Shown piece after piece: positions 4,528 to 7,226 of a DNA stretch of 64,000 nt. Made by a program: the position numbers and the translations under genes. A model generated the notes under the pieces. That model made no database searches. It had not been told where the DNA came from and saw nothing but the letters and a program-made list of their open reading frames with translations. The stretch lies in NCBI RefSeq assembly GCF_014218275.1, contig NZ_AP023213.1:4212954-4276953 (forward strand), written 5' to 3'. This stretch comes from Citrifermentans bremense. GTDB lineage: Bacteria > Desulfobacterota > Desulfuromonadia > Geobacterales > Geobacteraceae. Numbering within the stretch: position 1 is the stretch's first letter; each line of letters begins with the position of its first letter.

Positions 4528-4707
4528 TTAGGCCGCCTTCTGGCTAAGTTCGGTGCTTCTTGCTTTCACGAGTTCCATCGCTTCCCTCATGATGTCGGAA
4601 ACGCTTTTCTTGGTGGAGTCCATTATTGCTTCGAGCGTCTCACGCTCTGCGTCGCTGATCCTCATGGAAATTACGTTGTACCTCGGGTTCTCCCTCATTC
4701 TGCCCAT
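4528..4707 (-). CDS. Small ribbon-helix-helix (Arc/MetJ-type) DNA-binding protein
   Basis: A 59-residue protein on the minus strand, short enough to be missed by length-filtered gene calling. It begins MGRMRENPRYNVISMRIS, followed by SDAERETLEAIMDSTKK and SVSDIMREAMELVKAR: one beta-strand (YNVISMRIS), then two helices, the layout of ribbon-helix-helix repressors that bind DNA as dimers. The ATG at 4707 has an AAGGAG site eight bases upstream. Its stop codon lies in the loop of a perfect 7-bp palindrome (4521-4537), and the shared terminator follows. A -24/-12 promoter sits about 60 bases upstream and the sigma-54 activator gene is next door, so it is probably a target of that activator. What it regulates is unknown. 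Confidence 0.8.
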   Translation of the reverse strand: MGRMRENPRYNVISMRISDAERETLEAIMDSTKKSVSDIMREAMELVKARSTELSQKAA

Positions 4708-4763
4708 CTGCTGCTCTCCTTTTGTTTTAGTTGCTCAATTTTGGTGACACACGCCCTACATAT

Positions 4764-4779
4764 TGCTATATGCGTGCCA
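4764..4779 (-). promoter_or_regulatory. Sigma-54 (-24/-12) promoter of the RHH gene
   Basis: Read on the minus strand, TGGCACGCATATAGCA matches the sigma-54 consensus TGGCAC-N5-TTGC with one mismatch in the -12 element (TAGC). The essential GG and GC doublets are exactly ten bases apart. The predicted start, near 4753, gives a leader of about 45 bases before the ATG at 4707. Confidence 0.65.
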
Positions 4780-4867
4780 ACTCAAAAAATAAGCAACCAG
4801 CGAGGATAAGTGGTTGTTTTCACGTATACCGAAAAAAAATCGCCCCCAAAAGGTTATAAAGCAGTGT

Positions 4868-4919
4868 ATACAAAGTGGGCCACTTTTGGCACAAACGTGG
4901 TAAATGTGCCCATTTGTAT
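4868..4919. promoter_or_regulatory. Nested dyads, candidate enhancer (UAS) for a sigma-54 activator
   Basis: Three overlapping inverted repeats lie between the activator gene and the RHH promoter. These are AAAGTGG-G-CCACTTT (4872-4886); TGGCACA (4887-4893) facing TGTGCCCA (4905-4912); and an outer pair ATACAAAGTGGGC (4868-4880) against GCCCATTTGTAT (4908-4919). They sit about 100-150 bases upstream of the -24/-12 promoter, the usual distance for activator binding sites. A weaker alternative is that one dyad ends the activator transcript. Confidence 0.5.
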
Positions 4920-4946
4920 CATTTTGACCAGCCTTTTCTGGGCCGG

Positions 4947-7226
4947 CTAATCCTCAGCTTCCTCCCTCGCCCTTAACGTGCGCCCTTTGAGCCCGTGTTT
5001 CGCCAAAAGACGGTAAAATGTGCGCCTCGGGATGTTGGCAAGTTGTGCCGCTTTTGACACATTACCCCCAGCGTCGGCTAGATAGCGCTGGATCAGCTTC
5101 TTCTCCACCCGCAGCACATGGGGCTCACGCTCCTTCTTGAAGGAACGCAGGTCGATGACATCCTCGGCCTCCTCGGCATAGCTTTCGGCGAAGGCGAGCG
5201 GGAGGTTCCCCAGCTTGATGATGTCGTCGTGGGTGAGCACGGCGGCGCGCTCAATCACGTTCTGCATCTCCCGGATGTTCCCCGGCCAGGGGTACTTCAC
5301 CATGGCGCTGACCGCCCGCTCCTCGATGCCGTCGATGTGCTTGTTGAGTTTCGTGCGTGCCTTCTCCAGGAAATAGTGTGCCAGTTGGGGGATCGACTCC
5401 ACCCGCTCGCGCAAAGGGGGCATGGTGATGGAGAAGACGTTGAGACGGTAATAGAGGTCCTCGCGGAACCATCCTTCCCTGACACCGTCCTCCAGCGATT
5501 TGTTGGTTGCCGCGATAAGACGTACATCGACCCTTTTCGCTGCGGTCCCCCCGACCGGCCTCACCTCGCCCAGGTCGAGTACACGCAGCAACTCCGCCTG
5601 CAGCTTCGGGGTTATGTCCCCGATCTCGTCGAGGAAGATGGTGCCGCCGTCCGCCGCCTCGAAGAGCCCCTTTTTTTCCATGATTGCGCCGGTGAACGAC
5701 CCCTTCTTGTGGCCGAAGAGCTCGCTCTCCAGGAGCGAATCTGTGATGGTGGTGCAGTTGACCGTGACCAGCGGCTTGTCGTTTCTCTTGGAGTAGCGGT
5801 GAATGGCGCGCGCAGCCAGCTCCTTGCCGGTACCGGACTCGCCGCGCACGAGGACCGTGGTGGGGGTCGGCCCCACCTGCTTGATCTGGTCCAAAACCTC
5901 CAGCGTATTGCGGTCGCTCCCCACGATGAACTCGTCGCCGTAGCGGTCCAGCTCCCTCTTGGCCAGCTCGTACTTCTCGATCAGCCTCCCGCGCTCCTCC
6001 TCAAGCTGCTGCAGGTTGTGCGGCAGGCACATCTCCAGGTCTGCAAGCCCCTGGTACACGGCTACGGCGTACTCGCGGCAGCTCCGGTAGCCGCAGGCGC
6101 GGCAGTTGAGCTCGTCCTTCTGGGTGAACTTGTTGGTGGCGTGCAGGATCTTTTTCACATCTCCCGCCTTGGGGGTGGGGAGCTTAGCGTACTTGTCGGC
6201 GAAGGTGCGCGAAAGCGACACCGGTTCCGCGTCCAGGTAGGCCTGCGAGGTGCGGTACGGGATCTTGTTGCGGTGATGGGAGATTACCAGGTTGCGCCGG
6301 GAGAACTCGGTAAGCGTCTTGTTCCGGCCCGGCCCCCCGATGCAGCCGTCGTAGCAGAAGCGCAAATCGACCAGCTTTGGGTTGATCCTGCCAGCGGCGA
6401 GGTCTTTGATGATCCCCATGACATTGACCTCCCCCTCGGCCGTGACCACCTCGGTGTCGAGCGGGTCCGCCTCGATGCCGAAGGCCTGGAAAGACCCCTG
6501 CGACAGCGGGAAGATCCTTCCCATGTGCGGCTCCTTCCCGTCGAAAGGCTCCTCCTCCAGCGCTGCGAGGTCAATCCCCCGCTCCTTGAAGATGGACTCC
6601 AGCTCACGATAGGTGAGGAGCACGTCGACCGCCCCCTTGGTCTGCTCCGCCTGCACCTCGAATTTTCCGGCGATGCACGAGCTGATGTAGATGACCTTGG
6701 CCTTTCCCTCCCAGACCTGTTTCAGAAAGCGCCCCATGGCGACCATGTGCGTCACGACCCCCACCAGGTTCTCGATCAACTGCGGGTAGTGCCGCTCCAC
6801 GAGGTCGACGACGGCGGGGCAGTGAGAGGAGATAAGCGGCAGGTTGGCGTTTTCAATGGCGTCGCGATATTCGCCCGCGATAAGCTCCACCCCGCTCGCC
6901 CCCTCGTGCACCTCGACAAATCCCAGCCGCCTGAGCCCTGCCGAGAGCTGGCCGGGAGAGCAGTGATGGAAAAAGGAGGGAAACGAGCAGCCGAGAACCG
7001 CAATCACCGGCTCGCCGGAGGAAAGGTGAGCATTGGTCACCTCGACGTTGTCGGCTATCACCTTGGCGTGCTGCGGGCAGTGGCTCAGGCAGTTGCCGCA
7101 GCCGATGCAGCGCTCGGGGATGATCTCGGTATAGCTTTTCTCCACCTTGATCGCTTTCACGGGGCAGCTTCGGACGCAGGAGTAGCATTTGCGGCAATGG
7201 TCGGTAATGGTGACGATGGGGTACAT
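4947..7226 (-). CDS. Fe-S/hydrogenase-like sigma-54-dependent transcriptional activator
   Basis: A 759-residue one-component regulator. The ATG at 7226 is chosen because the ferredoxin fold starts at once and an AGAGG site precedes it. Domains in order: two [4Fe-4S] ferredoxin motifs (C11-C14-C17-C21P and C40-C43-C46-C50P); a domain like the catalytic part of [FeFe] hydrogenase, with the four H-cluster cysteines in place (C136 in SSHCP, C184 in SSCIAGKFE, C291 and C295 in CYDGCIGGPG); a further cluster motif C375-C378-C383-C400; an AAA+ domain with Walker A GESGTGKE (462-469) and the sigma-54 contact loop GSFTGA (509-514); and a Fis-type helix-turn-helix at the C-terminus. It probably senses redox state or a gas and activates sigma-54 promoters; the obvious local target is the adjacent RHH gene. 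Hydrogenase activity is doubtful because the proton-relay cysteine is His135 and the conserved lysine of the second motif is Gly187. Confidence 0.88.
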   Translation of the reverse strand: MYPIVTITDHCRKCYSCVRSCPVKAIKVEKSYTEIIPERCIGCGNCLSHCPQHAKVIADNVEVTNAHLSSGEPVIAVLGCSFPSFFHHCSPGQLSAGLRRLGFVEVHEGASGVELIAGEYRDAIENANLPLISSHCPAVVDLVERHYPQLIENLVGVVTHMVAMGRFLKQVWEGKAKVIYISSCIAGKFEVQAEQTKGAVDVLLTYRELESIFKERGIDLAALEEEPFDGKEPHMGRIFPLSQGSFQAFGIEADPLDTEVVTAEGEVNVMGIIKDLAAGRINPKLVDLRFCYDGCIGGPGRNKTLTEFSRRNLVISHHRNKIPYRTSQAYLDAEPVSLSRTFADKYAKLPTPKAGDVKKILHATNKFTQKDELNCRACGYRSCREYAVAVYQGLADLEMCLPHNLQQLEEERGRLIEKYELAKRELDRYGDEFIVGSDRNTLEVLDQIKQVGPTPTTVLVRGESGTGKELAARAIHRYSKRNDKPLVTVNCTTITDSLLESELFGHKKGSFTGAIMEKKGLFEAADGGTIFLDEIGDITPKLQAELLRVLDLGEVRPVGGTAAKRVDVRLIAATNKSLEDGVREGWFREDLYYRLNVFSITMPPLRERVESIPQLAHYFLEKARTKLNKHIDGIEERAVSAMVKYPWPGNIREMQNVIERAAVLTHDDIIKLGNLPLAFAESYAEEAEDVIDLRSFKKEREPHVLRVEKKLIQRYLADAGGNVSKAAQLANIPRRTFYRLLAKHGLKGRTLRAREEAED

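Follow-up and report, generated by a model that had tools for sequence, protein, structure and literature searches.

Analysis of a 64,000-nucleotide stretch of the Citrifermentans bremense genome (assembly GCF_014218275.1, contig NZ_AP023213.1, forward-strand positions 4,212,954 to 4,276,953; hereafter the window) identified a minus-strand locus that is probably the control module of HgtR, in which a redox-responsive iron-sulfur (Fe-S) sensor would switch on hgtR and HgtR would act on the citrate synthase gene gltA. The proposed sensor is a sigma-54 activator (4947-7226), and the proposed hgtR encodes a 59-residue ribbon-helix-helix (RHH) DNA-binding protein (4528-4707). The observation made in the preliminary description of this DNA is confirmed, its circuit is supported by comparison of sequences, and half of the pair seems to be known already. 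The notable part would be a hydrogenase-like sensor in genomes without a detectable maturase.

The minus-strand order is atoC RNA (7421-7331), activator (7226-4947), a 239-bp gap (4708-4946) and the RHH gene (4707-4528); cysS (Pfam; 2989-4449, plus strand) is convergent on the far side of the RHH gene. As had been described, the two genes lie on one strand, 239 bases apart; the activator is the upstream one. The gap indeed holds the nested dyad read there previously, a strand-neutral structure at 4868-4919 whose 18-nt arms (4868-4885 and 4902-4919) are 72% complementary and spaced by 16 nt. It encloses the palindrome TGTGCCAAAAGTGGCCCA (4876-4893, minus strand), a proposed binding site (upstream activator site, UAS) for the activator, which starts 113 bp upstream of the -24 element. 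The sigma-54 promoter claimed for the gap also holds up: TTGGCACGCATATAGCA at 4764-4780 on the minus strand is identified as the -24/-12 promoter of hgtR by pattern search and by a position kept in orthologous upstream regions.

Comparison sets of 48 genomes of the family and 141 genomes of the order were used (G and L numbers label genomes and loci, respectively). The activator was found at E <= 1e-150 in 37 of the 48 family genomes, and in all 37 the RHH gene is downstream on the same contig and strand, at most 1.3 kb from the matched part of the activator. Among the named activator loci, the best 80 of 512 and all counted for adjacency, the RHH gene follows the activator in 68, as a rule at a distance of 170-340 bp (exceptions 488 and 697 bp). 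Co-occurrence in relatives, proposed earlier as a check on the pair, thus stands for the activator-bearing members of the family and for most named loci, and it breaks down elsewhere. Two of the 12 remaining loci stop at a contig edge (L138, L164), and in others, mainly distant, the RHH gene is really missing. The distant, Desulfuromonadales-type loci L170, L172, L173 and L174 carry the activator without hgtR, the next gene being a GAF/PEP-utilising (PtsP-like) one, which in L174 comes after a small open reading frame (ORF); two chosen sets, of 10 and six ORFs, were scanned. Conversely, in two genera the RHH gene is present but no activator was detected (g13, six of eight genomes; g2, two of two). 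Of the 48 family genomes, 45 match the RHH gene strongly (E <= 7e-19), the exceptions being G004, G043 and G044. In the order, the sensor was detected at E <= 1e-60 in 119 of 141 genomes, and 134 have at least one RHH match (E <= 1e-12). As some of these genomes have two or more, certain matches may not be hgtR. In L092 (G028) and L094 (G032) the activator is broken across reading frames; one of the two genomes is a single-contig assembly, and decay or sequencing error is possible. Some f4 genomes (G075, G078, G099, G109, G110) have a second sensor copy nearer to family-type sequences, perhaps acquired sideways.

Upstream regions of hgtR were compared across the 45 family genomes with strong RHH matches, one region per genome, and in 44 of them the best -24/-12 match lies 63-94 bp before the RHH start. 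In the 45th (L086) the scorer chose a match 204 bp upstream, yet a -24/-12-like site is readable at the usual place. The same 44 regions have a palindrome resembling TGTGCC-N6-GGCACA (8-12 of 12 positions) that starts 104-116 bp upstream of the -24/-12 match. A strict pattern combining palindrome and -24/-12 promoter was found in 56 of the 141 order genomes, with one match each, all at most 150 bp upstream of an hgtR match. The reversed-pattern control gave zero matches in 141 genomes, and the palindrome-plus-promoter module is therefore far above chance. The 85 genomes without a strict match include some with weaker palindromes, for example eight g13/g2 loci. At this stringency hgtR is the sole predicted target; the spacing of the pattern was set on hgtR, and targets with other spacing would therefore be missed. 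The palindrome alone was also tried as a regulon finder and was rejected, with 101 matches in the home genome versus 99 in the control. Conserved adjacency, a palindrome-plus-promoter module at hgtR alone and a candidate operator at gltA together lend strong comparative support to the two-step circuit put forward in the preliminary description, in which the activator would switch on a small DNA-binding protein that controls further genes.

The palindrome also occurs upstream of the activator's own start, with at least 10 of 12 positions in 77 of 80 loci, compared with 0.4 of 80 in letter shuffles. In the window this copy is TGTGCCAGTTGTTGCACA (7292-7309, minus strand), which lies across the presumed -35 region and overlaps the only sigma-70-like site (7297-7270, minus strand) found in a promoter scan of 4400-7500. 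Taken by itself this activator promoter is weak, because shuffles of the region average 0.8 such sites. An activator bound at 7292-7309 would block its own promoter, suggesting negative autoregulation. A further palindrome-like sequence, TGTGTCAAAAGCGGCACA (5044-5061, minus strand), falls within the coding region for the helix-turn-helix (HTH) of the activator and is possibly a coding by-product.

On the evidence of gene context, the RHH gene is very probably hgtR (GSU3364 of Geobacter sulfurreducens), which encodes a citrate synthase repressor induced by H2. Growth on H2 requires hgtR. Pfam analysis of the 59-residue protein gave weak RHH matches, DUF6290 (9.7e-05) and RHH_1 (0.016), both below cut-off. 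A weak RelB match (20.6 bits; cut-off 50) would suit an orphan, RelB-like antitoxin unrelated to the activator. Such an identity is highly improbable and was rejected, as it is contradicted by the conserved activator-promoter module: the RHH gene is conserved together with activator and promoter, and in the window it is flanked by cysS and the activator, where nothing resembling a toxin gene was seen. In the accessible part of Leang et al. 2009 (PMC2725144), a gene for an enhancer-binding protein lies upstream of GSU3364, and an RpoN promoter is predicted on GSU3364. The locus analyzed here has the same context, a small gene directly downstream of an enhancer-binding protein gene and with an RpoN promoter, and the two are probably the same gene. 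The earlier statement that no such system had been characterised is thus, with high probability, wrong for half of the pair. The available portions of later papers, each citing Ueki and Lovley 2010, identify GSU3364 as HgtR and name H2 as its inducer (PMC7894505), report gltA, atpG and nuoA to be lowered by HgtR (PMC7726332), and describe acetate genes as possibly repressed by H2 via HgtR (PMC8691401). Two points weigh against the identification and the role given to HgtR: orthology rests on gene context, and HgtR is given as undetected in the proteome of H2-grown cells in the part of PMC7894505 that was accessible. No HgtR-named match was among the 120 matches listed per search, and the best 80 of 512 loci included none from G. 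sulfurreducens.

A candidate HgtR operator was found at gltA, where the palindrome GTATACAGTAT is present upstream of the gene in 16 of 20 genomes (one gltA copy fetched for 20 of the 48). The four genomes without it (G001, G039, G040, G046) are the four of the 20 without the activator. This candidate may already be published in the 2010 paper, and it would also provide feedback on hgtR in part of the family: GTATAC occurs close to the UAS in 30 of the 45 hgtR upstream regions, against 3.5 expected from shuffles. In the window, CTTTGTATACACTG (4862-4875, minus strand; GTATAC at 4866-4871) adjoins the UAS and may serve as an HgtR half-site; a second GTATAC (4824-4829) lies between hgtR and the UAS, and TGTATACAGTATAC-like sites were not found in the window. 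Several observations count against the assignment. It is an association, and the home gltA copy was chosen by hand after the motif had been seen beside its G014 counterpart; the second gltA copy of the home genome (L220) has no palindrome. GTATAC is also absent at hgtR in g6, G003, G037 and G047 despite the activator, as it is in the eight g13/g2 loci. Among 18 citrate synthase loci inspected, six (L218, L219, L220, L222, L231, L233) have no such palindrome, and at nine loci of a second, shorter citrate synthase a lone GTATAC was found in one and the palindrome in none. Separately, 11 of the 20 gltA leaders (L236-L242, L246, L248, L250, L251) have a conserved GAAAGGAGGG 84-97 nt before the start, in addition to the ordinary ribosome site; the AGGAGGG of gltA leaders is complementary to the loop CCCUCCU of the atoC RNA.

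The activator (759 residues) combines two [4Fe-4S] ferredoxin motifs, an [FeFe]-hydrogenase H-domain fold, a C-terminal Cx2Cx4Cx16C [4Fe-4S] motif, an AAA+ domain and a Fis-type HTH. Pfam identified Fer4 motifs, Fe_hyd_lg_C (1.9e-49), the FeS domain PF04060, Sigma54_activat (6.9e-67), an AAA lid and the Fis-type HTH. It has the features of sigma-54 enhancer-binding proteins, i.e. AAA+ with a GAFTGA-type loop (GSFTGA in the window), HTH and a target -24/-12 promoter. It resembles NorR, NifA and PrdR in AAA+ and HTH and differs from them in its sensor part. A predicted structure from 54 sequences (predicted local distance difference test, pLDDT, 76.4; used at fold level only, residues 1-54 unreliable) resembles [FeFe]-hydrogenases, with 8a6t as the best Foldseek match (E 4e-19, TM-score 0.62 by query length); an earlier model from 13 close relatives (pLDDT 62.6) was set aside. 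A literature search linking hydrogenase and sigma-54 found none.

Residues were counted in 81 activators, the 80 loci plus the window, three of them shorter than 700 amino acids. The H-domain cubane cysteines (136, 184, 291, 295), the four cysteines of the first ferredoxin motif and Cys375/378/383 are invariant in all 81. Those of the second ferredoxin motif are present in 80, the 81st reading X, and Cys400, which completes Cx2Cx4Cx16C, is invariant in 54 of 54. In contrast to catalytic [FeFe]-hydrogenases, which have Cys299, Met353, Lys358 and Met497, none of the 81 has this set, as judged by alignment to solved enzymes. The Cys299 position (proton transfer) is occupied by His (80) or Gln (1), Met353 by Ser (80) or Cys (1), Met497 by Arg (81), and the position of the pocket lysine, whose number we take to be Lys358, by Ala (54), Gly (25), Cys (1) or Val (1). 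The fold of Nar1/NARF-type hydrogenase-like proteins is thought to keep the cubane without a 2Fe site; unlike the activator, these proteins are not transcription regulators.

The residue numbers Cys299, Met353 and Met497 around the 2Fe site are those of the accessible parts of papers on group C and D sensory hydrogenases (PMC8163306, PMC10055695, PMC13104023). According to these, the activator shares with group C (TmHydS) and group D (TamHydS) two N-terminal [4Fe-4S] motifs, the H-domain, the C-terminal Cx2Cx4Cx16C, the loss of Cys299 and a small or hydroxyl residue at Met353. The outputs differ, being sigma-54 AAA+/HTH in the activator, a PAS domain in group C and none in group D. As far as the same sources go, group C/D enzymes also lack the proton-transfer cysteine and vary at Met353 and Met497, yet hold an H-cluster. 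Three of the four pocket changes (Cys299, Met353, Met497) consequently do not exclude an H-cluster, a point against a sensor lacking one.

Maturases were the more telling evidence. HydG was over cut-off in 14 of the 141 order genomes, namely three of the 119 with the activator versus 11 of the 22 without it (Fisher 2.7e-8, not corrected for phylogeny). HydG scores stayed under the cut-off in the home genome and in 116 of the 119 genomes with the activator; HydE was not searched. HydF, in a search of the family only, passed its cut-off in 11 of 48 genomes, of which two have the activator; it did not do so in the home genome or in 35 of the 37 family genomes that carry the activator. The home genome therefore differs from those of group C/D enzymes, which have HydEFG, for the two maturases covered, HydG and HydF. 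The activator stands apart from groups C and D in almost never sharing a genome with HydG and in its Ala/Gly at the presumed Lys358. The near-absence of HydG makes direct H2 sensing via a standard H-cluster unlikely, and since the HydG/HydF genome test weighs more than the pocket changes, a [4Fe-4S]-only redox sensor is favoured over a direct H2 sensor. Against this stand the restriction of the maturase search to HydG and HydF, the activator-bearing genomes that have HydG (G005, G038, G120) and the dependence of the HydG contrast mainly on a few clades (g13, g2, g26).

A true H2 sensor with an H-cluster, like group C/D HydS and matured by an unrecognised route, would account for the shared domain layout and fold, the retention of all four H-domain cubane cysteines, the reported H2 induction of its target hgtR (PMC7894505) and pocket changes similar to those group C/D enzymes tolerate. 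We consider it unlikely, in view of the maturase counts, of the Ala or Gly that replaces the lysine in 79 of 81 activators and of the same kind of pocket in aligned activators from HydG-positive genomes, L067 (G038) and L090 (G005). It is also somewhat doubtful, though a real possibility, that the activator responds to something else (CO, NO, O2 damage or iron status), with HgtR as a general brake on central metabolism and the H2 effect secondary. The invariant or near-invariant His/Arg/Ser of the pocket could bind another ligand, and Co(II) stress raised hgtR (table value 1.49 in the available part of PMC7726332), which would fit Fe-S damage; H2, by contrast, is what PMC7894505 names as inducer.

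Under the favoured redox-sensor reading, a protein built on a sensory [FeFe]-hydrogenase scaffold would read the reduction state of the cell through its [4Fe-4S] clusters without a 2Fe subcluster. One such signal would be a low-potential ferredoxin pool that becomes highly reduced as H2 is oxidised. Comparison suggests that its AAA+/HTH part would bind TGTGCC-N6-GGCACA upstream of hgtR and open the -24/-12 promoter, while the same palindrome over its sigma-70-like promoter would hold its own level in check. HgtR would then repress gltA and other energy and biosynthesis genes, as the accessible literature cited above indicates, with GTATACAGTAT as the likely operator at gltA, and the half-site next to the UAS of hgtR may act as a feedback element in some members of the family. 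No description of the route from H2 to the hgtR promoter was found in openly licensed literature; the founding 2010 HgtR paper may say more.

The activator-less genera show how the module may be reduced. In g13/g2 the hgtR palindrome is weaker (8-11 of 12 positions, eight loci) and the -24/-12 promoter is retained; none of the four genomes inspected has the gltA palindrome. The atoC RNA (Rfam) lies upstream of hgtR in all eight g13/g2 loci, and hgtR of L077, in this group, adjoins cysS. Loci L076-L083 have hgtR with -24/-12 promoter and atoC RNA, the activator was not found, and HydG or HydF is present. A wider reading, offered tentatively and at a little below even weight, is that a sensory-hydrogenase scaffold has become a maturase-free Fe-S redox switch, in which a conserved His/Arg pocket replaces the 2Fe site and the H2 response is read without touching H2. 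Activator, HgtR, gltA operator and atoC RNA would then form one inherited module, shedding parts (activator, palindrome, gltA operator) together in lineages with real [FeFe]-hydrogenase maturases.

The atoC RNA (RF01733; 7331-7421, minus strand; Rfam 81.8 bits, fold z-score -3.74) looks like a separate small RNA gene here. At 7331-7442 (minus strand), TTGCAG-N17-TATAAT is readable at its 5' edge, followed by a pair of hairpins and a terminator of its own, whose loop reads CCCUCCU (anti-Shine-Dalgarno); the presumed activator promoter lies downstream of the RNA. This loop precedes the activator in 28 of 81 loci, and a sigma-70 match of at least 9 of 12 lies ahead of the loop in 28 of the 35 loci that have it, a count without shuffle control. 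The accessible part of PMC2864571 lists atoC RNA as cis-regulatory in one table, and a text search on atoC RNA found none. Elsewhere in the window, a cobalamin riboswitch (115 bits) lies at 18027-18207 on the minus strand, with CobS, CobB/CbiA-type and CbiM genes beyond it on the same strand (three ORFs scanned).

Sequence comparison thus puts a name to the sensor proposed for HgtR control, shows where it probably binds, points to hgtR as its probable single target and adds a candidate operator for HgtR; it leads to the prediction that the sensor resembles a hydrogenase yet has no H-cluster. The reported effect of HgtR, less acetate oxidation in the presence of H2, is relevant to syntrophy, bioremediation and electrodes.

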